DNA of 64,000 nt from Ruegeria arenilitoris (GTDB lineage: Bacteria; Pseudomonadota; Alphaproteobacteria; Rhodobacterales; Rhodobacteraceae), in the NCBI RefSeq assembly GCF_013030265.1, contig NZ_WPZQ01000012.1, positions 64,501-128,500 of the forward strand, read 5' to 3'. This document shows, one piece after another, positions 2,878-42,315 of the stretch (within the stretch, counting starts at the first letter, position 1; every line of letters starts with the position of its first letter). The position numbers and the translations under genes were made by a program. The notes beneath the pieces were generated by a model. The model was not told the origin of the DNA. It did no database searches and was given only the letters and a program-made list of their open reading frames with translations.

Positions 2878-4482
2878 GTGAGCGTGCAGCAGATCGGAAC
2901 TGTCTGGGCAAGTTTGGACAGGCGCAAACAAATTATCGTCGCTGGCGCCGTAGCGCTGGTGTTTCTTGGAATCCTCGGCATGTCCCGTCTGGTGACCGCG
3001 CCGTCGATGACACTGCTATACGCCGGGCTCGAAAGTGGCGCAGCCGGCGATATCGTACGTGCGCTTGATCAGCGCGGGGTTACTTACGAAATCAGAGGCG
3101 GCTCAATCTATGTGCCCGGTGCGCAGCGTGACGAATTGCGTATGACGCTGGCGAGCGAGGGCCTGCCCGCCAACGGAAATCGAGGCTACGAACTGCTCGA
3201 TTCCCTCAGCGGATTTGGCACCACGTCGCAGATGTTCGACGCTGCATACTGGCGCGCAAAGGAAGGCGAGCTGGCGCGCACTATCGTGGGCAGTTCCTAT
3301 GTCAGCCAGGCGCGCGTTCACATTGCGAACGGATCAGCCAATCCGTTTCAGCGCAGCGTGTCGCCAACAGCATCGGTCTATTTGGTGCCTTCAGGTGGCC
3401 AGATCACGGGCGATCAGGCCAAGGCAATCCGGTTTCTGGTTTCTTCGGCAGTTAGCGGTTTGGCCCCGGAAAACGTCTCGGTGATCGATTCGAATGGCAC
3501 AGTGATCGGACCTCAGGAGACCGCAGTCGCCGCCGATACTGCCGATGACAAGGCGCGCCAGCTGCGAGAAAGGGTGATGCGCCTGGTCGAAGCGCGTGTT
3601 GGCGCCGGGAATGCGGTTGTCGAAGTCAGTGTAGATACTGTGACCGAAACCGAATCCATTCGCGAACGACGCATTGATCCAAAAGGTCGAGTAGCGATCA
3701 GTACAGATGTTGAGGAAAGGTCGGACAGTGCTCACAACCAATCCTCTGATGTCACCGTTGCGTCGAATTTGCCGGATGGCGATGGATCCGGAGGGGATGA
3801 ATCGAATTCGAACGCCACCCAAACGCGCGAACGGGTGAATTATGAAATCTCCGAAACCGAGCTCGAAGTGCATCGTGCCCCGGGTGCGATCAAGCGCTTG
3901 ACCGTTGCGGTATTGGTCAATGGGGAACGAACCATTGATGCCGCAGGTGTCGAGACATTCGTTCCGATGCCGCAGGTCGAACTGGATGCCTTGGGTGAGC
4001 TCGTCGCCTCTGCCGTTGGTTTCGATGCCGAAAGGGGTGATGTGATTACGCTCAAATCCCTCGACCTTCCGGCGGTTGAACCACAGGGCACATTGGCGTC
4101 ATCTTCACTTTTGAGCCGAGTTCACCTCGACGTCATGTCCTTGATTCAAATGACAGTTCTGGCGCTGGTCACGTTGGTTCTGGCACTGTTTGTGATCCGT
4201 CCGATACTATCCAAGCAAGCTGTCGTACCTGCATTGCTACCTGCTGGCGGCGCACCCGATGGAGAGGCCGCGCCCTATCTGACGGGTGAGATTGCAGCAG
4301 ATGAATCATCGGAATTCGCTCCGTTGCCGGGTCAGGCGCAAGCAGAGGCAGGCGTACCCGCACTGCCGTCAGCCAAAGGCGAGGATGCCGTGGATCGCCT
4401 GCGTGCGATGATCGGTGACAAGCAGGAAGAAACGGTTGAGATCCTGCGCAGCTGGCTCGAGGAAAGCGAGGAGAAGGTGTGA
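2878..4482 (+). CDS. fliF: Flagellar MS-ring protein FliF
   Basis: FliF builds the MS ring in the inner membrane, the base of the flagellum and mount for the FliG rotor. The 534-residue length and two membrane segments (about 19-39 and 423-445) fit. Between them lie the YscJ-like ring domains (VYLVPSGGQI, then the ERVNYEISETE region). The last 30 residues (DRLRAMIGDKQEETVEIL) form the FliG-binding helix. The start is GTG at 2878; a second GTG at 2884 is better spaced from the GGAG at 2875-2878 and may be the real one. First gene of the rightward fliF-fliH-fliN-fliP operon. Confidence 0.95.
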   Translation: MSVQQIGTVWASLDRRKQIIVAGAVALVFLGILGMSRLVTAPSMTLLYAGLESGAAGDIVRALDQRGVTYEIRGGSIYVPGAQRDELRMTLASEGLPANGNRGYELLDSLSGFGTTSQMFDAAYWRAKEGELARTIVGSSYVSQARVHIANGSANPFQRSVSPTASVYLVPSGGQITGDQAKAIRFLVSSAVSGLAPENVSVIDSNGTVIGPQETAVAADTADDKARQLRERVMRLVEARVGAGNAVVEVSVDTVTETESIRERRIDPKGRVAISTDVEERSDSAHNQSSDVTVASNLPDGDGSGGDESNSNATQTRERVNYEISETELEVHRAPGAIKRLTVAVLVNGERTIDAAGVETFVPMPQVELDALGELVASAVGFDAERGDVITLKSLDLPAVEPQGTLASSSLLSRVHLDVMSLIQMTVLALVTLVLALFVIRPILSKQAVVPALLPAGGAPDGEAAPYLTGEIAADESSEFAPLPGQAQAEAGVPALPSAKGEDAVDRLRAMIGDKQEETVEILRSWLEESEEKV

Positions 4483-5078
4483 TGTCCATCGCTCATCTCC
4501 TTGAAGATTTCACGGCCCAGTCCGACGGTGCCGCAGTTCATCTGCTGGATGAAGATGCGCTGGAAGAACAGCGTCTGGCCGCTTTTGAAAACGGCTACGG
4601 TGCCGGATGGGAAGACGCGATAAAGGCGCAGGAACAGCAGAGCGGGCGCCTCACGGATGAGCTGGCAAGATCACTCGAGGATGTGTCCTTTACCTATCAC
4701 GAGGCAATGACACGAATGACTCTGTCTCTGGAGCCGATGTTTCAGAGTCTAATAGGTGTCATTTTGCCTGAAGTGGTCGATCGAAGCTTTGCAACACAGA
4801 TCGTCGAGCAGTTATGCCAAATGGCACAGGATCAGATTGGCCAACCCATGCAGCTTGTGGTGCCTGAAGGTTCATCAGAAGCGGTGCAGAACCTAGTGCC
4901 CGACGCGCTTTCACCATCCCCACAGGTCATCGAAGACCCTGCGCTTCAGCCGGGGCAGGCGCGGCTGCAGGTTGGTACGGCGCGGCGCGCGGTTGATCAC
5001 AGCGCGTTGCTGTCCACCATCGCGCGGGCATTCGACGCATATCTCCATGAAGCAAAAGAGGCTTTGTCAAATGAGTGA
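4482..5078 (+). CDS. fliH: FliH-like flagellar export regulator
   Basis: A roughly 198-residue cytoplasmic protein in the position of fliH, which binds and restrains the FliI export ATPase. The middle part (about residues 20-90) is helical with repeated E and Q; the C-terminus (VEQLCQMAQDQIGQPMQLVV) fits the FliH/YscL C-domain. I chose ATG at 4482, which overlaps the fliF TGA; a GTG one codon earlier is possible. Similarity to FliH is weak by eye, as is usual in this family, so the call leans on gene order between fliF and fliN. Confidence 0.7.
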   Translation: MSIAHLLEDFTAQSDGAAVHLLDEDALEEQRLAAFENGYGAGWEDAIKAQEQQSGRLTDELARSLEDVSFTYHEAMTRMTLSLEPMFQSLIGVILPEVVDRSFATQIVEQLCQMAQDQIGQPMQLVVPEGSSEAVQNLVPDALSPSPQVIEDPALQPGQARLQVGTARRAVDHSALLSTIARAFDAYLHEAKEALSNE

Positions 5079-5355
5079 TCCCCAGACCCCGAAACCCGAA
5101 AAGAACCCGTTCGAGGCTGTGCCGATCGAGGTCACCGTGTCAGTTGGGCGCGCCCGTCCTCTGATCCGCGATCTGCTGAACATGGGTGAGAATGCCGTGC
5201 TCACGCTGGACAAACGCATAGAAGATCCGGTGGATCTATATGTTGGCGATCAACTGGTCGCGCGCGGATTGTTGGAGGAGCTTGAGGGAGACCAGTCAGG
5301 CCGGCTCGCCGTACGCTTAACTGAGATATCTGACCTGCAGAACGGTATTGGATGA
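5071..5355 (+). CDS. fliN: Flagellar motor switch protein FliN
   Basis: A 94-residue C-ring protein. Almost all of it is one SpoA domain: IEVTVSVGRARPLIRDLLNM, then LTLDKRIEDPVDLYVGD and a closing VRLTEI. FliN caps the rotor ring and helps switch direction and dock export cargo. I start it at the ATG at 5071, which overlaps the fliH end by 8 bases; the open frame extends further upstream, but that part (from 4972) lies inside fliH and has no domain. The stop overlaps the fliP start. Confidence 0.93.
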   Translation: MSDPQTPKPEKNPFEAVPIEVTVSVGRARPLIRDLLNMGENAVLTLDKRIEDPVDLYVGDQLVARGLLEELEGDQSGRLAVRLTEISDLQNGIG

Positions 5356-6086
5356 TGCGCCAATTGTTCTGGCTGGGTCTCGCAGGCCTTCTGTTGATGC
5401 CTTCATTTGCAACGGCGCAAGAACTGTCCCTGTCATTGGGTGATGGCGGCTCGATCTCGGCTAGAACAATACAGCTGATCCTGCTGATCACGATCCTCAG
5501 CCTGGCGCCGGGTCTGGCAATCATGATCACCTGTTTTCCTTTTCTTATCACGGTTCTCGCCATTCTGAGACAGGGTATTGGCCTGCAGCAATCACCACCG
5601 AACATGCTGATTGTCAGCCTCGCTTTGTTCCTGACCTATTTCATAATGGAGCCGGTCTTTACCGAAGCTTGGGACACGGGCATTCGTCCAATGGTAGAAG
5701 AAACGCTTGATGTAGAGCCTGCTTTGGAACGGGCATTGGTTCCGTTTCGTGAATTCATGGCCGCCCGATTGGATGCCGATACGTTTTATTCGATGGCAGC
5801 GCTGCGCCCGGGTGGTGAGGCGATGCAGCTGTCACCCGAAGCGCCAATCTCGGTGCTGATGCCATCCTTCATGCTGTCCGAGATTGCGCGTGCCTTTCAA
5901 ATAGGTTTCCTGATTTTTCTGCCGTTTCTGATCATCGATCTCGTGGTTGCTGCCGTGCTCATGTCGATGGGCATGATGATGGTGCCGCCTGCAACGGTGT
6001 CTCTTCCGTTCAAACTGGCGTTCTTTGTCATAGCTGACGGTTGGGCCCTGATCGCCGGAGCGCTGGTGCGCAGCTACGTGCCATAG
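5352..6086 (+). CDS. fliP: Flagellar type III export gate protein FliP
   Basis: FliP forms the core of the flagellar export gate with FliQ and FliR. The 244-residue protein has a cleavable signal peptide (1-22, ending ATAQ), as FliP has. It carries the strongly conserved TMs: LILLITILSLAPGLAIMITC, then ITVLAILRQGIGLQQSPPNM, then the C-terminal pair with MGMMMVPPATVSLPFKL. ATG at 5352 overlaps the fliN stop. fliQ and fliR do not follow: the next gene is on the other strand, so those are encoded elsewhere. Confidence 0.97.
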   Translation: MMRQLFWLGLAGLLLMPSFATAQELSLSLGDGGSISARTIQLILLITILSLAPGLAIMITCFPFLITVLAILRQGIGLQQSPPNMLIVSLALFLTYFIMEPVFTEAWDTGIRPMVEETLDVEPALERALVPFREFMAARLDADTFYSMAALRPGGEAMQLSPEAPISVLMPSFMLSEIARAFQIGFLIFLPFLIIDLVVAAVLMSMGMMMVPPATVSLPFKLAFFVIADGWALIAGALVRSYVP

Positions 6087-6101
6087 TGCTGAGGTGACAA
6101 T

Positions 6102-7544
6102 CTATTGGCGCGTAATTCGAAGCCGCGCCCGCAGACCCTGATCACCGGCCTCAAAGCTGAGCGTCCCGCCGTGTTGTTCGGCTACGGTGGCGGCAATCGT
6201 CAGGCCCAGTCCAAACCCATCCGAAGAGCCTGTGTTAGAGCCGCGTTGGAACGGCGCCATCAGGGCCTCGACATCCTCGACAGACAGATCGGTTCCCTTG
6301 TCTTCGACGACGATTGTCGCTGTCTGCGCATCGGTTTCCAATGCAACTTCGGCATGGCGGCCATATTTCAACGCATTGTCGATAAGGTTGCTGAGTGCGC
6401 GTTTGAGGGAGATCGGCCGGCCCATGATCAGAATGCGCCTGGTTTCAGGCAGCGATCCCTGCCCGCGCCGGGATGCAAAGACTGATTGGGCGCCTTCTAC
6501 CACTACAGGAGCAACTTGTTTCAGCGAAACCGGAAGGTCCATATCCTGATAGTCGGCGACCAGAGATTCGACTAAAGCAGTCAATGAAATCTGGCGTGGG
6601 TCTTCGATGCTGAGTTCGGACCGGGTATAGGTCAGGACGCTTTCGATCATGCCGGTCATCTGATCCACATCGGCCTCAAGCTTTTCGCGCAACTCATCAT
6701 CCGGGATCAACGCCGCGCGCAGACGTACCCGGGTGGCGGGTGTGCCGAGATCGTGGCTGACACCCGACAGGACAATCGCACGTTTCTCAAGCTGGGCACG
6801 TTCATCGTCCAGATGGTCATTCACGGCGGAAACGATTTCGCGCAACTCCTCGGGGCCGTCCGCGTCATAGCTGTCCGGCCCACCCCTGCGTCTGCGATCC
6901 CGCAGTGCCTGAGCGAACCGGGCAAAGGTGTCGGTCACGTTGCCCACTGACGTCAGGATGACGGCAAGCGCGATTACAGCAATCAATATGGCGGGCAGGC
7001 GCAGATCGGTTGGTGCCGCCTCGCATCCCCAGACAGCAGTTCCATCGACACTTTGCCAGTCACCCCGACCGAATCTGGCGATCAGGATCGGCTCACTGCA
7101 ATAGGTCGCCAGCAACCGGGTCAGGTTTCCCATCTTTTGCGGCCCGGTCTGATCGCTGCCCGAAACAATATCAGAAACCGGATAGACCAGCCGGTCGGAC
7201 ATCACCGCCAGCGTCAGTTCGCGCCCGCTGAGCGGTGAAGAACTGTCGGTCAATATCGACAGGTTGGTTACGAAACGGCGGCCCGAAAAGCCCGGAATTT
7301 GTTCAAATTTGCCTTCTTCGGCCAAGATCGCCGCGTCCGGTGACAATGGCGTAATCGAAACATCCTGCGGCGAAGCCATGCCGGTTCGCAATTCTTCGTA
7401 CACGGCAAAGCCGGCCACAAAGGACTGTGTCAGATACCGATCCCAGGACTGCGCCGAGGTAAACCAAAGCCCTCCGGACAAAAGGCCCGCAGCAAATGCG
7501 GCCAGTGTCCAGATCCAGCCAAGGCGGCGCAGTGGCAGGGTCAT
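6102..7544 (-). CDS. Membrane sensor histidine kinase
   Basis: Senses a periplasmic signal and phosphorylates the response regulator encoded just upstream, whose stop overlaps this start by 4 bases. Of 480 residues, two membrane helices (about 11-30 and 183-203) bracket a sensor domain of about 150 residues; a HAMP-like linker follows. The H box is SHDLGTP with His264, the N box runs to N390 (SNLIDNALKYG), and the G2 box is GFGLGL (443-448). The G1 box reads EDKGTDLS instead of the usual DxGPG. Position next to a GtsABC-type transporter suggests a role like the glucose-sensing kinase of Pseudomonas. Confidence 0.88.
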   Translation of the reverse strand: MTLPLRRLGWIWTLAAFAAGLLSGGLWFTSAQSWDRYLTQSFVAGFAVYEELRTGMASPQDVSITPLSPDAAILAEEGKFEQIPGFSGRRFVTNLSILTDSSSPLSGRELTLAVMSDRLVYPVSDIVSGSDQTGPQKMGNLTRLLATYCSEPILIARFGRGDWQSVDGTAVWGCEAAPTDLRLPAILIAVIALAVILTSVGNVTDTFARFAQALRDRRRRGGPDSYDADGPEELREIVSAVNDHLDDERAQLEKRAIVLSGVSHDLGTPATRVRLRAALIPDDELREKLEADVDQMTGMIESVLTYTRSELSIEDPRQISLTALVESLVADYQDMDLPVSLKQVAPVVVEGAQSVFASRRGQGSLPETRRILIMGRPISLKRALSNLIDNALKYGRHAEVALETDAQTATIVVEDKGTDLSVEDVEALMAPFQRGSNTGSSDGFGLGLTIAATVAEQHGGTLSFEAGDQGLRARLRITRQ

Positions 7545-33099: not shown

Positions 33100-33434
33100 T
33101 TGCTGTCATTTTTGAAGTGGAGCCTGCCGAGGGTGAAACGCAGACCTATCTCGACATTGCAGCCGATCTTCGTCCCCTGCTGGATAATATCGATGGGTTC
33201 ATTTCTGTTGAGCGGTTTGAAAGTCTTGTAACACCCGGCAGATATCTGTCGCTTTCCTTCTGGCGCGATGAGGATGCGGTTGCCGAGTGGCGCCGCATGA
33301 ACGAGCACCGCACAGCACAATCGCGAGGGAAATCGGGTCTGTTCAAGGGATATCGACTGCGTGTAGCAGCGGTCATGCGCGACTATGGGTTGACCGATCG
33401 TGAACAGGCGCCGACCTCAGGCCGCATCGGGTAG
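33096..33434 (+). CDS. Antibiotic biosynthesis monooxygenase-domain protein
   Basis: A 112-residue ABM-domain protein: IAVIFEVEPAEGETQTYLD, then FISVERFESL, then LSLSFWRDEDAVAEWR and HRTAQSRGK. The domain occurs in small cofactor-free oxygenases and in proteins of unknown use. It follows the NIPSNAP gene with overlap and ends in an 18-base convergent overlap with the next gene. Confidence 0.87.
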   Translation: MIAVIFEVEPAEGETQTYLDIAADLRPLLDNIDGFISVERFESLVTPGRYLSLSFWRDEDAVAEWRRMNEHRTAQSRGKSGLFKGYRLRVAAVMRDYGLTDREQAPTSGRIG

Positions 33435-33809
33435 CAGGAAAACACCGCGGGCAAGATCCGAGTTCAGCCTGTCATTTCCGTACCACTTGCCAAGGACATT
33501 CTTCGACATCAGATCAGGGTTTTCACTGACAAACTCATTGAAATTCTGATGGGAATTGCCAGCCATACGCTCGGCAATCAGGCTCATGAACGCATAGGTG
33601 ATTGTCAGGTTGAACTTACCGGGCGCACCGGCGTTTGTGGCCAGTGTGCGAATGCCCTTGGCATAGATCGCAGCCGCATCGATGAAGTCATATTTCCTCA
33701 ACAGGTCAAAGGCCACCTGTACATGCTCGGCATGAGCGAAAGTCGTATTGTCGATGGCATGCGCTTCGAACGCGCGGGTAATCTCAGATATCTGAACTGC
33801 TTCGGTCAT
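33417..33809 (-). CDS. Small protein paired with an RHH protein
   Basis: A 130-residue protein of no named function. The early FAHAEHVQVAFDLL motif, with its two histidines, and the following YAKGIRTLATNAGAPGKFNL recall a family seen in many bacteria with an F-H-x-x-H start. It has no signal peptide or membrane segment. Its ATG overlaps the stop of the RHH gene, so the two form an operon. The role is unknown; a toxin-like role with the RHH protein is possible but not shown. Confidence 0.75.
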   Translation of the reverse strand: MTEAVQISEITRAFEAHAIDNTTFAHAEHVQVAFDLLRKYDFIDAAAIYAKGIRTLATNAGAPGKFNLTITYAFMSLIAERMAGNSHQNFNEFVSENPDLMSKNVLGKWYGNDRLNSDLARGVFLLPDAA

Positions 33810-34057
33810 TCCCCGATCTCCTTGAATTTGTGGCTGTGCTCGGCGGTCCAGTCCAACTCGTAAACCTCTTTTAACTGGCTGATCTTTTTGAGCGTCTCAG
33901 GCGAGAATGGCGGTTTGTTTTCAAAACTATGCAAGGCGATGCCCTCAATCAGGTCGCCAACGGACATGTCCAGCGATTCTGCCAGCCCCTTCAGGACTTT
34001 CAGCAATCGCTTTTCGATTCGAATTCCGGTCTGGGTACGTTCAATTCTCTCACTCAT
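33806..34057 (-). CDS. Ribbon-helix-helix-like small protein
   Basis: An 83-residue protein. Residues 8-40 (TGIRIEKRLLKVLKGLAESL then MSVGDLIEGIAL) fit the ribbon-helix-helix DNA-binding fold: a short strand, then two helices. An acidic C-terminal helix follows. It overlaps the partner gene by 4 bases and has its own inverted repeat 2 bases before its start. This arrangement, with DNA-binding protein, partner and operator, is that of an autoregulated pair. Confidence 0.75.
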   Translation of the reverse strand: MSERIERTQTGIRIEKRLLKVLKGLAESLDMSVGDLIEGIALHSFENKPPFSPETLKKISQLKEVYELDWTAEHSHKFKEIGE

Positions 34058-34059
34058 GA

Positions 34060-34081
34060 GTTACCAATGTACCAAGGTAAC
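34060..34081. promoter_or_regulatory. Candidate autoregulatory operator of RHH gene
   Basis: GTTACC at 34060-34065 and GGTAAC at 34076-34081 are the arms of an inverted repeat; TACCA is repeated inside. It lies just upstream of the RHH start codon, where the RHH protein would repress its own operon. Confidence 0.6.
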
Positions 34082-34104
34082 AAAAGAGTCAATGCGTAAA
34101 CAGA

Positions 34105-34134
34105 AAAAGGCCGCCTCTGCAGAAGCGGCCTTTT
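34105..34134. terminator. Terminator of fadH
   Basis: AAAAGGCCGC and GCGGCCTTTT pair perfectly over a 10-base loop, with T-runs on either side. It ends the fadH transcript on the minus strand and could also work on the plus strand. Confidence 0.85.
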
Positions 34135-34185
34135 AGTGTCTAAACAACGTGATTCAGCGGATGCGCGTTGCCACGGCTCTGAAAA

Positions 34186-36267
<2,082 letters not shown>

Positions 36268-36337
36268 TCACGCGAAACCTAACGTCACCCCCTTTGCTGC
36301 CGTCGCGACGCTTGTTAGAGGTGGGCAGACCAAACCC

Positions 36338-36835
36338 ATGAGGCCGCGCATGACCCCTGAAGACATTGCCAAACTGCCCTATCGCCCCTGCGTTGGCCTG
36401 ATGCTGATGAATGCCGACGGCAAGATTTTCGTGGGTCAGCGCAATGACCGCCACAAGGACGCCTGGCAAATGCCCCAGGGCGGCGTAGACAAGGGCGAAA
36501 ACCCCCGCGATGCAGCCCTGCGCGAACTATGGGAAGAAACCGGTGTGACGGCTGATCTGGTTGAGATCATCGCCGAGACCGACGGTTGGCTGCCCTATGA
36601 CCTGCCCCACGACATCGTGCCGAAGATTTGGAAAGGCCGCTACCGCGGGCAAGAGCAGAAATGGTTCCTGATGCGGTTCACCGGTCGTGACGACCAGATC
36701 AATATCCAGACGGAACATCCCGAATTCACGCACTGGAAATGGCAAGAGCCCAATCGTCTGATTGAGGAAATCGTTCCCTTTAAACGCGTAGTGTATGAGC
36801 AGGTGGTTGCTGCCTTTGCGGACAATCTGACCTAG
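36338..36835 (+). CDS. rppH: RNA pyrophosphohydrolase RppH
   Basis: Removes pyrophosphate from mRNA 5' ends to start decay. The 165-residue Nudix protein has the box [24 protein letters not shown] in order (quoted in parts: [23 protein letters not shown]) and the RppH-specific [11 protein letters not shown] and QMPQGG. The ATG at 36338 has GAGGTG 13 bases upstream; the ATG at 36350 is an alternative. The stop overlaps the convergent NYN gene by 4 bases. A second, diverged copy of its last 24 codons lies at 37619-37690. Confidence 0.95.
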
Positions 36836-37509
36836 GCCTGCCGTGAGAACCCCTGTGGTTTGAATCGCACATTAGTATTCTGTCCCGCTTCATCCAGATC
36901 ATACAATTCTGGTTTGGATTGCAGATATCGCCGCCATGTTTTTTCCTGGCTTTCACTGATCTTAACGCCGTGTTGCCGATGCATCTTTGCCCCGAGTATC
37001 ATCAGCCGCATTCCTGCCCCGTTCTTGCTGTTGGCAGCTATGATGGTCCGGATCTGTTGATCCATTTCAGAGACGGGCTTTTCGACCGCGCCGGTTTTGG
37101 AACTACCTGACAAAGCCTCGAGTTCACAGAACTTCGAGCACGCTTTGCGAACCACTTCCGGGGTCTTTGCCTCACCTGCGCCAATTGTGGTTACGCCATG
37201 CTCGCGCAACCGGCGGTGAAGGTGCACAAAATCTCCGTCAGAACTGGCGATTACAATGGTCGCAATGTCACGTTGTAAAGCAAACTCAATACCGTCAATG
37301 GCCAACAGCAGGTCTGTGGCGTTCTTTCCTGTTCCGCTGTGGATGAGGTGATACGCAGTGGCATCATGCCAGGCTGAATGACTCTGAGCGTTCAAATAAA
37401 CCCGTGAGATATCGATCTGGCCAAATCTCCGGGCAATCTTGTGAATGTTTTCCGCATGGACGGGACTAAGATTATCGCCGTCTACCAAAACAGCTACTCG
37501 AAGTGTCAT
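36832..37509 (-). CDS. NYN-domain protein with LOTUS-like C-terminus
   Basis: A 225-residue putative RNase of the NYN (PIN-like, LabA/DUF88) fold. The acidic residues of the site are visible: VDGDN (D10, D12), [11 protein letters not shown] (D66 and others) and ASSDGDF (D91, D93). Residues 150-216 resemble an OST-HTH/LOTUS RNA-binding domain ([17 protein letters not shown], then [15 protein letters not shown]). I start at the ATG at 37509 before TLRVAVLV. The gene is convergent with rppH (4-base overlap) and is flanked by two copies of the rppH 3' end, so it was probably inserted there. Confidence 0.85.
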
Positions 37510-37618
37510 AAAAAAAACCGATCTCAAATTAGTCAGCAAAGACTTAAAGTGAGACTGAGGCAAATTTTGGACGTCTGGAGCTGACTTTTCTGCGTGGTGC
37601 GATTTCAACTGCTCAGTC

Positions 37619-37690
37619 GAGGAAATCGTTCCCTTCAAACGCGCAGTGTATGAGCAGGTGGTTGCTGCTTTCGACGCTCACCTGTCATAA
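37619..37690 (+). pseudogene. Remnant of a second rppH 3' end
   Basis: In frame this reads [20 protein letters not shown], then HLS and TAA, against [20 protein letters not shown], then NLT and TAG of intact rppH (36764-36835). The two 72-base blocks are 59/72 identical by my count, with the first 51 bases 48/51. No Nudix box is present upstream, so it is a broken tail. It is followed by the sigma factor promoter region. Confidence 0.85.
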
Positions 37691-37720
37691 TCCGGGCTGA
37701 ACCAGCCGTAGGGACGTGAC

Positions 37721-38260
37721 ATGCGTATTGATGATATCTGGCCCAAGTACCGCGCCCGCCTGAAGGCGTTTCTTCATTCGCGGGTCTCAAACCCTGCGGA
37801 TGTGGATGACTTGTTGCAGGATATCTCGATCAAGGTGTTCACCGGTCTGCCCGGTCTGCAGGATCCGGCCAGGCTGCAGCCTTGGTTGTTTCAGACCGCC
37901 GACCGAACCATCATTGATTTCTACCGTAAATCCGGCCGGTCCGCCGCGCATCCAGATGATCTTTGGTATCACCGGGACGATCCGGAAACGCGTCAGGATC
38001 TCGAGGGCTGTGTCGAACCCTTCATTCTCGGCCTGCCTGAAGAAACTGCAGAGATGCTGATGGCCATTGATATACAGGGTATGTCGCAGCGAGATTATGC
38101 TGAGCAACACGGTCTGTCCTACTCGACCCTGAAATCACGCGTTCAAAAGGGGCGGGCGGAATTGCGCAAGGCATTTGAGGCATGCTGCAATATTTCGATG
38201 GACGTGCGGGGAAACATCTCGGACGTTCAGGAAAAACCGGCCAGCTGCAAAAATTGTTGA
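37721..38260 (+). CDS. ECF sigma factor, SigZ-like
   Basis: A 179-residue sigma-70 family factor: region 2 with DVDDLLQDISIKVFTGL, and region 4 with QGMSQRDYAEQHGLSYSTLK. It resembles the SigZ group. The C-terminal tail carries four cysteines (C155, C156, C176, C179) in ACCN and CKNC, suited to bind metal or respond to redox state. No anti-sigma gene stands beside it. It is followed after 64 bases by the GST gene and then the radical SAM and DUF547 genes, which it may control. Confidence 0.87.
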   Translation: MRIDDIWPKYRARLKAFLHSRVSNPADVDDLLQDISIKVFTGLPGLQDPARLQPWLFQTADRTIIDFYRKSGRSAAHPDDLWYHRDDPETRQDLEGCVEPFILGLPEETAEMLMAIDIQGMSQRDYAEQHGLSYSTLKSRVQKGRAELRKAFEACCNISMDVRGNISDVQEKPASCKNC

Positions 38261-38324
38261 TCTGAACGTCGTCTTTTGGGCGCGGGCTTCGTCTGACAGA
38301 TGAAACCACCAAAAGGAAAGACAA

Positions 38325-39035
38325 ATGATCCGTATCATTAGTTTCAAAATCTGCCCCTTCGTTCAGCGTGTGACCGCCATGCTCGAAGCCAAACAGGTAC
38401 CCTATCAGATCGACTATATCAGCCTCAGCGACAAGCCGGATTGGTTTCTTGAGCTGTCCCCGACAGGGCAGGTTCCGGTTCTGGTCACCGAGGGTGGCGT
38501 GTCTCTGTTCGAATCCGATGCGATTGTCGAATATATCGATGAAATCACCGCCCCTCTGCAGGCAGATCTGACGCCCGAGCAGCGTGCGCTCAACCGGGCA
38601 TGGAGCTATCAAGCCAGCAAACACTATCTCGTACAATGCAGCACCATGCAAAGCGCGGACAAAGCTATCTTTGATGAGCGTATGGAAAAGCTGAGCAAGT
38701 CCTTCGAGAAGGCCGAAAGCCAGCTTGGTGAAGGCCCCTATTTCTCGGGGGCGACGCTTGGCAATGTGGATATGGCCTGGTTGCCACTGCTGCATCGTGC
38801 AGCGATTGTGTCAGACCACAGTGGCCATGACATGCTTGCCGCCTATCCAAAGGTGAAGGCATGGCAGCAGTCATTGCTGGACACAGGTCTTCCGCAGAAA
38901 TCGGTCTCTGAGGATTTTCTCGGCCGGTTTACTGACTTCTATCTGGCGGAACGCACATGGTTGGGTCGTGGTGCAAACATCGATGAAGCACCGACCGCCC
39001 CGGCTGCCAAAGTGTCAGGCGGTTGCTGCGGCTGA
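38325..39035 (+). CDS. Glutathione S-transferase family protein
   Basis: A 236-residue protein with an N-terminal thioredoxin-like domain (KICPFVQRVTAMLEA, a CPF site with C10) and the GST C-terminal helical domain. The block SPTGQVPVLVTEGGVSLFES is the usual cis-Pro and glutathione-binding part. The last residues, SGGCCG, are an unusual paired-cysteine tail, matching the Cys-rich tail of the neighbouring sigma factor. AAGGAAAG stands before the ATG. Substrate unknown. Confidence 0.88.
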   Translation: MIRIISFKICPFVQRVTAMLEAKQVPYQIDYISLSDKPDWFLELSPTGQVPVLVTEGGVSLFESDAIVEYIDEITAPLQADLTPEQRALNRAWSYQASKHYLVQCSTMQSADKAIFDERMEKLSKSFEKAESQLGEGPYFSGATLGNVDMAWLPLLHRAAIVSDHSGHDMLAAYPKVKAWQQSLLDTGLPQKSVSEDFLGRFTDFYLAERTWLGRGANIDEAPTAPAAKVSGGCCG

Positions 39036-39107
39036 TGTGATCACCGCCCAGCACGTTGCCGTGAGGGGGCGTGGTCCGCCATAAACTGCAGCTTTAGCTT
39101 GGCGCGT

Positions 39108-40481
39108 ATGAAAGATATCGCGCCAGGCCATTCCAATGTCGTTCCCGCAGGGCGAGTGTTTCGCGGCTCCGACCGTCGTGCGACTTTGCGGGAAGGTTTG
39201 CAAGGATGTGGCGAATACGGACATTCTCAAACCGCGGGCCGCTTTTATCCGATCGCCTGTGTTGCGCTTGAGGTGACCCAGCGATGCAATCTTGATTGTA
39301 CGCTCTGCTACCTCTCGGATCGGGCGGAGATGACCTATGATCCGCCTTTGTCGGTTCTCTTTGCGCGGCTGGCCACGATCCACAGCCATTATGGCCCGGG
39401 TGTTTCGGTGCAACTCACCGGAGGTGACCCAACCCTGCGCAAAGTCGAGGATCTTGAGGCGCTTTGCCGTGAAATTCGCCGCCTTGGAATGCGGTCGTGT
39501 TTGATGACCAACGGTATCCGCGCGAGTCGCGCGTTCTTGTCCCGACTGGCAGCGGCAGGTTTGGACGATGTGGCGTTTCACGTGGACATGACCCAAGAGC
39601 GCAAAGGTTTTGACAGCGAGATTGAGCTGAACACCGTACGTCGCAACTACATAGTCGCAGCGCACGGGCTTGGTCTGCGCATTTTGTTCAACACAACTGT
39701 GTTTGATGGCAATCTGTCCGATCTCCCCGCATTGGCGCGGTTCATGCGGGACCAGCCCGAGATCGCATTTGTCTCCTTCCAGATGCAGGCCGACACCGGC
39801 AGGGGTGTTCTGCGTGAGCGACCGGATTCAATCACACAGAGCAGTGTCATGCGGGCGGTGGAGCAGGGGTATGGCACCCCACTGCATTTCGATGCGGCGG
39901 CGGTCGGGCATTCCGGATGTAATCGATACGCTTCTGTCCTGACCGCCGGTGGGCGGGCGATTTCCGTCCTGTCGCATCAGCGTCTGGTGCAACAGGTAAT
40001 CGCCGCATTGGAGCAGATGGACAGATCGGCGGATGCATATCTCGACACGCGCGACAGCGTTCGGCGGTTGGTTCTTCGGAGGCCGGGCCTTGCCTTGCGG
40101 GCCGCTGCGCATCTTGCGGGCTGTGTCCTTCGATTGGGGATGGGTCTGTTGCGTGGTCGGGTCAGGCGACAGGCGGTATTCATCCATAACTTCATGGCTG
40201 CCGACGCGCTGGAGGAAGATCGCTGTGCGTCCTGTGTGTTCATGGTCGCCACGGGCAACGGCCCGTTGTCCATGTGTGTTCACAACGCCCAGCGTGACCT
40301 GCATCTGGCCATGCCTGACAAAGTTGACGGTCCAATGGGGACCTATTGGTGGAACTCTGCCATGCGAGATCTGTCCCGCCACCCTGAGTTGCCCGGTCTG
40401 GATAGTCCTGAACAGGCCCCGATCAAGAAGCTCAAAGGTCAGCTGCGTGCGCGGCGTCAGAACCGGAAGGGAAAATCATGA
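39108..40481 (+). CDS. Radical SAM protein of unknown reaction
   Basis: A 457-residue enzyme. The iron-sulfur motif is CNLDCTLCY (C60, C64, C67), then QLTGGDPTLR (about 102-111), typical of radical SAM cores. The C-terminus carries three more cysteines (C373, C376, C390; CASC then MC), perhaps an auxiliary cluster. I start at ATG 39108; TTG at 39099 is the other choice. It overlaps the DUF547 gene by 4 bases (ATGA). It does not match MoaA, PqqE or other common enzymes by eye. Its substrate is open. Confidence 0.85.
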   Translation: MKDIAPGHSNVVPAGRVFRGSDRRATLREGLQGCGEYGHSQTAGRFYPIACVALEVTQRCNLDCTLCYLSDRAEMTYDPPLSVLFARLATIHSHYGPGVSVQLTGGDPTLRKVEDLEALCREIRRLGMRSCLMTNGIRASRAFLSRLAAAGLDDVAFHVDMTQERKGFDSEIELNTVRRNYIVAAHGLGLRILFNTTVFDGNLSDLPALARFMRDQPEIAFVSFQMQADTGRGVLRERPDSITQSSVMRAVEQGYGTPLHFDAAAVGHSGCNRYASVLTAGGRAISVLSHQRLVQQVIAALEQMDRSADAYLDTRDSVRRLVLRRPGLALRAAAHLAGCVLRLGMGLLRGRVRRQAVFIHNFMAADALEEDRCASCVFMVATGNGPLSMCVHNAQRDLHLAMPDKVDGPMGTYWWNSAMRDLSRHPELPGLDSPEQAPIKKLKGQLRARRQNRKGKS

Positions 40482-41317
40482 AAGCTCTTTGGCTCATCCT
40501 GCTTCTGCCTCTTCTGGCGGCTTGCGCCAGTGTCGAACGTCTGGCGCTGCCCAGTGCTGTGCCGTTTGCCGACACCAATCTGACCCGCGCGGCGCAACCG
40601 CCCGGTGATCGTGTCGATCATCGCGATTGGAGCAGCTTTCTCGCGCGCTACGTCGCTACCGACACACAAGGGGTAAACAGGGTCGCCTATGCGCAGGTCA
40701 CTCAGGCTGATCAAACTCGATTGGACCAGTACCTGAGTGATCTTCAATCGGTTGATCCTGCCCGTCTGACACGTGATCAGCAACTGGCCTATTGGATCAA
40801 TCTTTATAACGCACTGACCGTGGACCTGATCCTTGAAAACTATCCCGTCGCTTCGATCCGCGACATTACAGATGGTGCGTTTTCCTTTGGCCCGTGGGAT
40901 CGGCCTTTGGCGCAGGTCGCGGGTCAGGTCCTGACGCTGAACGATATCGAACACCGCATCATACGACCTACATTCAACGAACCACGAATTCATTACGCGT
41001 TGAACTGCGCTGCGGTGGGGTGTCCGAACCTGATGGATCGGGCGTGGCAGGCTGAGACGCTCGAACGTGATTTCTCGGTCGCCGAAAATGCCTACGTTAA
41101 CGACCCGCGCGGCGTCAGGTTTGACACCCGCGGGCGGCTGATCCTGTCAAAGATCTACATCTGGTTCCGAGAGGATTTCGGGCCAGACGACCGGGCCGTG
41201 CTTGCTTATCTTGCGACTGCGGCGGATCCGGCTCTCAGCGCCCGTCTGTCTCAAACCTCCCGCATCAGCGGATATGAGTATGACTGGGCGCTGAATGATG
41301 CCGCCGCTGGATCCTGA
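40478..41317 (+). CDS. DUF547 lipoprotein
   Basis: A 279-residue lipoprotein: lipobox LAAC with Cys16, then the DUF547 domain with LARYVATDTQGVNRVAYAQV, QLAYWINLYNALTVDLIL and PRIHYALNCAAVGCPNL. DUF547 resembles a papain-like/transglutaminase-related fold, and a Cys-His-Asn arrangement may be present (HYALNC). It is translationally coupled to the radical SAM gene, which suggests a common pathway. Enzymatic function is not established. Confidence 0.85.
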   Translation: MKALWLILLLPLLAACASVERLALPSAVPFADTNLTRAAQPPGDRVDHRDWSSFLARYVATDTQGVNRVAYAQVTQADQTRLDQYLSDLQSVDPARLTRDQQLAYWINLYNALTVDLILENYPVASIRDITDGAFSFGPWDRPLAQVAGQVLTLNDIEHRIIRPTFNEPRIHYALNCAAVGCPNLMDRAWQAETLERDFSVAENAYVNDPRGVRFDTRGRLILSKIYIWFREDFGPDDRAVLAYLATAADPALSARLSQTSRISGYEYDWALNDAAAGS

Positions 41318-41325
41318 AAGACCGC

Positions 41326-42315
41326 TTACAGCAGCCCTTCTTCGCGCAGCAGCTCCAGCATGTTTGCTTCGGGCCGTGGGCCAATGTGGCTGATCACTTC
41401 ACGGGCACAGGCATTGCCGATACGGGCGCAGGTTTCATAGTCGCGGCCTGTGGCCATTCCGAACAGGAAGCCGGCAGCGAACTGATCGCCTGCGCCGGTT
41501 GCATCCACCGGTACAACCTTTTCCACTGCCACGTCGATGCGCTTGCCTTCGTTCAGAACGGTCACCCCGTCACCGGAACGGGTGCAAACAACCAGCGGGC
41601 AGATCTCACCGGTTTTGGCCAGTGCGTCCTCCAGATCATCGGTTTCGAACAGCGATTTGATTTCCGCTTCGTTACCGATGACGAAATCCAGCTCGTTCTC
41701 AATCAGCAGCAGGAAATCGACCCGGTGGCGTTCGACGCAGAACGGATCGGAAATCGCGATGCCCGCCTTGCCGCCGCCCTTGTGGCAATTGCGCGCTGCC
41801 TCAAGAAACGCGGCTTTGCCCTTTTCCTTGTCGAACAGGTAGCCTTCCAGGAACATGATCTGGCTGTTGCCTGCCACATCCCCGGACACGTCCTCGGATG
41901 ACAGTTCCGAAGAAATCCCCAGATAGGTGTTCATCGACCGCTCACCATCGGGCGAGACAAAGATCATCGAACGCGAGGTTGGCAGCTCGCCGCCCGGCAC
42001 CGGTGGGTTCACAAAATCAACACCGTCTTCATTCATCGCATCCGCATAGAACCGACCCAGCGCATCGTCATGCACGCGGCCGATAAAGGCTGCATCCAGT
42101 CCCAGCGCACCGGCACCCGCAATCGTGTTGGCAACCGAGCCGCCGGGCGTCTGCACCCGTGATTCCATCGAGGCATACAACACTTCGCCGCGTTCCTGCT
42201 CGATCAGCTGCATGATGCCTTTTTCAATGCCCATCAGCTCCAGGAAACTGTCGTCGGCTTGGGAAATCACGTCCACAACGGCATTCCCGATGCCCGTCAG
42301 CTGGTAAGTTTTCAT
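41326..42315 (-). CDS. Adenosine kinase-like PfkB-family sugar kinase
   Basis: A 329-residue ribokinase-family kinase. The first motif is GGSVANTIAGAGALG, the active site is DATGAGDQFAAGFLFG, and the whole length and the MKTYQLTGIGNAVVDV start match the alpha-proteobacterial adenosine kinase group. It phosphorylates adenosine or a related nucleoside. It overlaps nth by 4 bases at its start and is convergent with the DUF547 gene at its end. Confidence 0.9.
   Translation of the reverse strand: MKTYQLTGIGNAVVDVISQADDSFLELMGIEKGIMQLIEQERGEVLYASMESRVQTPGGSVANTIAGAGALGLDAAFIGRVHDDALGRFYADAMNEDGVDFVNPPVPGGELPTSRSMIFVSPDGERSMNTYLGISSELSSEDVSGDVAGNSQIMFLEGYLFDKEKGKAAFLEAARNCHKGGGKAGIAISDPFCVERHRVDFLLLIENELDFVIGNEAEIKSLFETDDLEDALAKTGEICPLVVCTRSGDGVTVLNEGKRIDVAVEKVVPVDATGAGDQFAAGFLFGMATGRDYETCARIGNACAREVISHIGPRPEANMLELLREEGLL

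Follow-up and report, generated by a model that had tools for sequence, protein, structure and literature searches.

The window analysed here is a 64,000-nucleotide stretch of the Ruegeria arenilitoris contig NZ_WPZQ01000012.1, part of a 4.62-Mb genome. It contains a NUDIX hydrolase gene, which Pfam assigns to that family and which we take to be rppH, and the 3' end of this gene occurs twice. Behind rppH follow a NYN gene on the opposite strand, 109 bases (37510-37618), a 72-base remnant of the rppH tail, a sigma factor gene (sigZ), a glutathione S-transferase (GST) gene, a radical SAM gene, a DUF547 gene and a PfkB-family kinase gene. The features are as follows.

34186..36213, minus strand: FMN oxidoreductase / pyridine nucleotide-disulphide oxidoreductase (FMOR), the left neighbour (Pfam PF00724, PF07992), beside rppH in 54/54 Ruegeria genomes
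36338..36835, plus strand: rppH, NUDIX RNA pyrophosphohydrolase, the anchor gene (Pfam NUDIX E 7e-28), in 54/54 Ruegeria genomes
36764..36835, plus strand: live rppH tail, 51 bases in common with the remnant and then 21 differing bases
36832..37509, minus strand: NYN-LOTUS (LK-nuclease / OST-HTH) predicted ribonuclease gene (Pfam NYN E 3.7e-25), convergent with rppH, 4-base overlap
37510..37575, minus strand: NYN upstream region with the element GGCAAATTTTGGACG (plus-strand form), its distance to the start codon as in other NYN-type loci
37576..37618, no strand: junction between the DNA upstream of NYN and the remnant, some 43 bases without a convincing match in 54 Ruegeria genomes
37619..37690, plus strand: remnant, a displaced rppH tail of the sigZ-type allele, in frame with its own stop, ending TGTCATAA
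37721..38260, plus strand: SigZ-type ECF sigma factor (NCBIfam SigZ above cut-off), start 30 nt after the remnant stop
38325..39035, plus strand: glutathione S-transferase family gene, accompanying sigZ (Pfam GST_N/GST_C)
39099..40481, plus strand: radical SAM protein gene (Pfam Radical_SAM), the next conserved gene in 16/18 other NYN- or sigZ-type loci
41326..42315, minus strand: PfkB-family kinase, the right anchor (Pfam PfkB E 5e-42), in 53/54 loci

The NYN gene is best placed at 36832-37509 because this ATG start is shared with its relatives; an alternative, longer open reading frame from a TTG at 37638 would cross the remnant.

The two rppH tails (36764-36835 and 37619-37690) each run in frame through 24 codons to their own stop. 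They are identical at 59 of 72 bases, with 48/51 in the first 51 bases, where 15 of the 17 third codon positions agree, and 11/21 in the last 21. The first-pass annotation of this DNA had given the overall and first-block counts and the in-frame tail correctly to the base, and its statement that the NYN gene alone lies between the copies, convergent with rppH and sharing 4 bases with it, was confirmed by annotation of the locus. A repeat search returned the pair as a direct repeat of 53 nt (94%, spacing 855), and blastn gave E = 2e-17 within the 12-kb locus; the runner-up among ungapped 72-base matches to the tail in the 64-kb window reached 36/72 on the plus strand and 38/72 on the minus strand. 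DNA-level similarity of the remnant to rppH ended at 37619, and protein searches hinted weakly at an extension to codon 129 or 135 of rppH, on which we do not rely.

We compared this arrangement with the rppH loci of 54 Ruegeria genomes, all of which carried rppH with the FMN oxidoreductase gene on its left. The right flank varied. It held sigZ, GST and radical SAM genes in 10 genomes and sigZ-GST alone in 1, NYN and radical SAM genes in 6 and NYN alone in 1, a radical SAM gene without NYN or sigZ-GST in 10, and other or no content in 23; other inserts behind rppH included HlyIII, FkbM methyltransferase and sulfate permease genes. The window was the sole one of the 54 with both NYN and sigZ-GST, together with a radical SAM gene whose upstream region, judged by eye, is of the S type. 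Strains in which the sigma factor follows rppH directly, with a tail like the remnant, had been predicted from the window, and they were found: sigZ lies directly 3' of rppH in 11 of the 53 other genomes, and in 10 of these 11 the ending is exactly that of the remnant. Nor do all relatives carry the NYN gene with the same remnant, an arrangement that the first-pass annotation had held to speak against recent insertion: 7/53 have NYN directly 3' of rppH without a detectable remnant. On a FastTree tree of the two flanking genes (53/54 loci), the NYN, sigZ and neither types appeared intermixed, NYN and sigZ types being near neighbours in cases such as L056 and L053. At two of the radical-SAM loci (L061 and L080), inspected by eye, the opening codons of sigZ lead straight into the 3' part of the GST gene, and these loci are therefore read as deletion products of the sigZ type. 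At L040 and L062 the sigZ-GST pair lies inverted beyond the kinase gene and has therefore itself moved. Taken with the repeat, we consider it likely that the duplicated rppH tail marks the junction of two alternative gene sets, each of which is carried singly by related species.

The ending of the remnant identifies a candidate parent. The ending TGTCATAA was shared by 10/11 live rppH genes of the sigZ type and by the deletion derivative L080, and was found in 0/42 other live rppH genes, the window's own included. Because the ending is restricted in this way, the remnant is read as a displaced sigZ-type tail, which supports the view that it comes from an rppH once followed directly by the sigma factor. 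The sigZ ATG lies 6 nt behind the rppH stop in 11/11 sigZ-type loci and 30 nt behind the remnant stop in the window; the extra stretch before the window sigZ contains TAGGGAC, which could be a candidate ribosome-binding site. The first 51 bases gave a different picture from the ending. In this block the two window tails match each other at 48/51 and match any other species at no more than 45/51, so both copies of the block appear to share a single lineage, the look of two alleles being confined to the last 21 bases. Among pairs of other species, 7/1378 reach 48/51, a count in which 52 of the 1378 pairs are invalid through a mis-anchored row (L048, EIVPFK anchor). GAG at codon 1 combined with GTT at codon 4 occurs in both window tails but is missing from all 52 other genomes that were correctly anchored. 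The abrupt change in the last 21 bases fits a crossover within the block or at its end, followed by some divergence, and the shared 51 bases also fit a donor from a close relative or a duplication within one lineage. The first-pass interpretation is thus supported in part, in that the remnant is a tail of the sigZ type.

Linkage between the rppH tail and the genes behind it was measured as the identity of the last 105 bases minus that of the first 360 bases of the compared part of rppH, in species pairs whose left-neighbour genes are 86-97% alike. The difference was -0.002 for pairs with the same cassette (n=16) and -0.044 for pairs with different cassettes (n=33), pair counts that are unchanged when L048 is left out. 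The observed linkage was reached by 110/2347 label permutations, and by 33/2117 without the two deletion derivatives. From these comparisons we have moderate confidence that the rppH tail tends to travel with the cassette behind it. On the other side of the insert, an element upstream of NYN (GGCGAAAATTTGACG or similar in relatives) reaches about 37575; it was placed at 45-49 nt by local alignment in 4/7 NYN-type loci, and visual inspection of a multiple alignment showed it in the remaining 3; pairwise scores taken singly were hardly above those of shuffles. Since this element ends at about 37575 and the remnant begins at 37619, the right join falls within about 37575-37619. A convincing match to the 43 bases at 37576-37618 was sought in the 54 Ruegeria genomes and none was found; with these bases lacking a source among the 54 genomes, short homology at the join could not be shown. 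Promoter and terminator prediction around the join returned one of each, with 0.9 expected.

Comparison of each rppH with its own downstream DNA gave a second tail in 3 of the 54 Ruegeria genomes: the window, L051 (225 nt, 93%, behind an FkbM methyltransferase gene) and L081 (80 nt, 78%, behind a sulfate permease gene). The search for other genes between two rppH tails, suggested by the first-pass annotation, was therefore productive. In the other 51/54 genomes the second tail scored at most 35, which is shuffle level (shuffles reach 37). In L050 (G010) the PfkB-type kinase gene, which bounds the interval on its far side, has a duplicated tail of 79 nt (82%; live copy 5232-5310 and second copy 6059-6137 in locus coordinates), near which lies an open reading frame that we take to be a cold-shock protein. 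Among the best 80 of 111 NYN loci, there are two in which NYN is flanked by another gene and by a leftover copy of that gene's 3' end: L116 from Hongsoonwoonella zoysiae (proC-type gene, tail copies 5606-5703 and 6688-6785) and L111 from Celeribacter halophilus (histidine kinase, tail copies 3648-3683 and 4523-4558). In both, the tailed gene lies upstream of NYN and is codirectional with it. Repeat lengths across the cases ranged from 36 to 225 nt. The 127 loci yielded 24 direct-repeat pairs, of which six (L051, L085, L081, L050, L116, L111) resemble scars of gene tails in a sorting that left out L119, the stronger L095 pair, L113, L125, L120 and L123; several of the other pairs fall inside long reading frames. 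L140 has a flanking repeat without assignment to a gene tail. A protein search with the tail in 139 family genomes (135 with any match) gave as second matches only the window remnant and one weak match (G082, on another contig), which disfavours a high rate of tail remnants. Their recurrence behind other inserts, at the kinase gene and in L116 and L111 argues for a general process and not a peculiarity of rppH.

We also modelled the protein encoded by the inserted gene. The AlphaFold model of the NYN protein had a mean pLDDT of 90.9, and a search of the PDB with it gave four matches with E 0.001 or better, all to MARF1 NYN domains (best match E 3e-6, TMt 0.75). Residues D10, N13, D66, D91 and D93, presumably catalytic, were invariant in 40 NYN sequences. 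The C-terminal 81 residues, modelled separately (pLDDT 86.5), had as top three matches the LOTUS domains of Tejas, TDRD5 and TDRD7 (E 8e-3 to 2e-2, TMq 0.59-0.69), none of which reaches E 0.001, and the winged-helix protein RosR came next (E 2e-2). Pfam OST-HTH was detected in 1/40 NYN members (E 0.021) and is absent from the window protein. The models thus suggest a conserved NYN-LOTUS nuclease resembling MARF1, with the LOTUS domain recognised by fold and weakly by sequence, and judged by fold and family the protein is a probable endoribonuclease with an RNA-binding domain. Codon-position identities of 0.76, 0.81 and 0.43 were obtained against the R. arenilitoris copy, a pattern that suggests purifying selection on the NYN coding sequence. 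Away from rppH, a further and more divergent NYN subfamily is common in Ruegeria (19 matches, mostly about 244 aa, E about 1e-40).

Several proposed origins and roles of the NYN gene were examined. Recent foreign origin on the ground of low GC content was rejected, as lower GC is a property of the NYN family: NYN lies below flank GC in 91% of 78 loci (mean -0.041). A phage origin was likewise rejected, with only distant matches in 6 phage records, none covering 80% of the query, as was a plasmid origin, with 352 plasmid records all below 60% identity, 12 of them covering at least 80%, and a best match of 45.6% (a Marivivens plasmid). The suggestion that NYN is defence cargo found no backing in the PADLOC defence families, to which it had no match at E 0.1. 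The suggestion that it is functionally locked to rppH fared no better. Close NYN relatives in Ruegeria lie directly behind rppH in 8/8 cases, and rppH (at least 45% identity) was near NYN in 9 of the best 80 of 111 NYN loci, all of them in Ruegeria; outside Ruegeria it was near 0/71 (flanks up to 6 kb, shorter at contig ends). In L104 (R. pomeroyi) and L105 (Ruegeria sp.) other genes lie between rppH and NYN and there is no remnant. Because of the 0/71 and the separation in these two loci, site rather than function most likely explains the adjacency.

Bacterial proteins that combine an LK-nuclease (NYN/DUF88) domain with OST-HTH (LOTUS) have been described, in genes for which the part of that account available to us reports no conserved neighbourhood with other known RNA-processing systems (PMC2848206). 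In eukaryotes, human MARF1 is described as binding the DCP1-DCP2 decapping complex and plant DNE1 as binding DCP1 and not DCP2 (PMC10226599, in the text available). The window protein shares with these bacterial proteins, MARF1 and DNE1, as they are presented there, the order NYN then LOTUS. Unlike MARF1 and DNE1 as portrayed in PMC10226599, it has a single LOTUS domain and is a predicted RNase only, and its link to a decapping-like enzyme was not seen outside Ruegeria. If NYN moves with the rppH tail, lying convergent directly behind rppH as it does (8/8), NYN-LOTUS and RppH might be considered a bacterial counterpart of MARF1 or DNE1 with the decapping machinery, exchanged as one RNA-decay allele; on the present comparisons we judge this very unlikely. 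A literature search for RppH with a NYN domain gave no paper joining the two in the material returned, the single return being on RNase P.

We favour, as the likely origin of the locus, a one-sided event in which an rppH-NYN allele recombined with an rppH-sigZ-GST allele through homology at one end and was joined to it illegitimately at the other. The interval between rppH and the PfkB kinase gene would be an exchange site for alternative small gene sets in Ruegeria, exchanged through ordinary homologous recombination within the conserved genes on either side, the last rppH codons tending to move along. The window would be the product of a faulty, HFIR-like exchange, homologous on one side and illegitimate on the other, in which the displaced sigZ-type rppH tail was left as the 72-base remnant ahead of sigZ; sigZ would have lost its translational coupling to rppH and may now use its own start region. 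Homology at one end is present in the 51-base block (48/51) and in rppH itself, common to both parental arrangements, and at the other end the join, between about 37575 and 37619, includes the 43 bases without a convincing match in the 54 genomes. Delivery may have been by gene transfer agent (GTA) or transformation; a GTA gene is present in the same genome (GTA_TIM, E 2e-153), which makes it a plausible source of chromosomal fragments. The first-pass view of replacement by homologous recombination is supported in part, by the repeat, both parental arrangements and the sigZ-type remnant, and its likening to the integration of islands finds no support, there being no integrase among the ten genes scanned (33417 to 42315) and no tRNA in the 64-kb window.

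The direction of transfer can be read in two ways. We lean towards entry of NYN into a sigZ-type genome, in which case placing the join upstream of the homologous crossover would require a template switch or a second copy of the chromosome. Entry of a sigZ-GST fragment ending in rppH into a NYN-type genome, where it joined behind the resident NYN, explains the anatomy equally well and has, in our estimate, somewhat less than an even chance. Per-gene nearest relatives gave no signal of direction, the window's species being about equally far from all others, and L051 was not decisive, its two tails differing by both synonymous changes and decay.

Other histories would also yield a gene between two copies of a tail. 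Replication slippage or template switching may have duplicated the genome's own rppH 3' end, with NYN entering separately between the copies. The GAG/GTT codon pair that both tails share, absent from the other 52 correctly anchored genomes, and their 48/51 likeness fit such a duplication, but the copies disagree at 10 of their last 21 bases, the live gene does not end as the sigZ type does and two separate events are required, so that we regard it as unlikely. An ancient tandem rppH paralogue of which the tail alone survives, NYN having arrived later or independently beside it, would account for a remnant in frame to its stop; the first-pass annotation had named such a paralogue as fatal to the replacement model. 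We find this barely credible, as no trace of a second rppH body was found. The two tails are moreover too alike (48/51) to be ancient, the remnant has the ending of live sigZ-type genes, and no remnant rises above background in the 18 other genomes where NYN or sigZ follows rppH.

Alternatively, a small circle bearing an rppH tail and NYN could have integrated by a Campbell-type single crossover, through RecA or an integrase acting in trans. Such an event would leave rppH complete and produce the element-like succession of tail, insert and tail, a layout also seen around the NYN genes in L116 and L111. We hold it to be decidedly improbable. The genes scanned include no integrase and the window no tRNA, inverted repeats are absent from the insert ends (the two pairs found fall between NYN and the sigZ reading frame), no remnant above background was seen at the seven other loci where NYN follows rppH, and the length of the repeat varies from case to case over the range given above. 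A circle of this kind also sits poorly with NYN lying behind rppH in 8/8 Ruegeria genomes, yet rppH near none of the 71 other NYN loci.

One-sided recombination, which we prefer, is an instance of known processes, and the event is mechanistically ordinary. HFIR has been described in Acinetobacter, Pseudomonas stutzeri and Streptococcus pneumoniae (cited in the available parts of PMC2884548 and PMC5361080). As HFIR is outlined there, the window resembles it in that one end is anchored by homology and genes are added at a conserved gene, and the second end may likewise have been joined without clear homology. It differs in that the process is here read from a genome, and in that the window event is a duplication, whereas the title of the S. 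pneumoniae HFIR paper names insertion-deletion. In the passages available, one-sided recombination has also been proposed for T6SS immunity arrays, with the old effector 3' end shifted back (PMC5361080), and for dimorphic loci (PMC2884548). In the Vibrio cholerae arrays, as presented in PMC5361080, a new module displaces the old one and an effector 3' end persists downstream, much as here; here, unlike in those arrays, the anchoring gene belongs to RNA decay and occurs in every genome searched, and what was displaced is a gene tail. Integrase-free hotspots with homologous recombination in flanking core genes have been described as well (PMC5635113, text available). The rppH interval resembles them in its variable content between two conserved genes, in that no mobile-element machinery was seen, and in the proposed recombination in the flanking core; unlike that work, the present comparison is across species of one genus, and tail remnants as scars are absent from the hotspot description in the text available (PMC5635113).

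With the two parental arrangements and their merged product all available, the locus illustrates the part played by core-gene 3' ends in integrase-free gene exchange in a marine bacterium with a GTA gene. It is of use because the case is complete and because tail remnants can be counted: such remnants are a simple, searchable trace of one-sided recombination, present at rppH alone in 3/54 Ruegeria genomes, and could be counted genome-wide to give the frequency of the process and the genes it brings in. The NYN-LOTUS gene, for its part, appears from its modelled fold to be a compact bacterial relative of MARF1.

Two minor observations concern the neighbouring genes. The radical SAM protein (39099-40481) matches viperin models (pVip E 1.6e-11) and TrsS, with NCBIfam matches far below cut-offs. 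A 22-nt inverted repeat (86%) at 37295-37316 and 38049-38070, between NYN and sigZ, is probably a chance similarity of two coding stretches.
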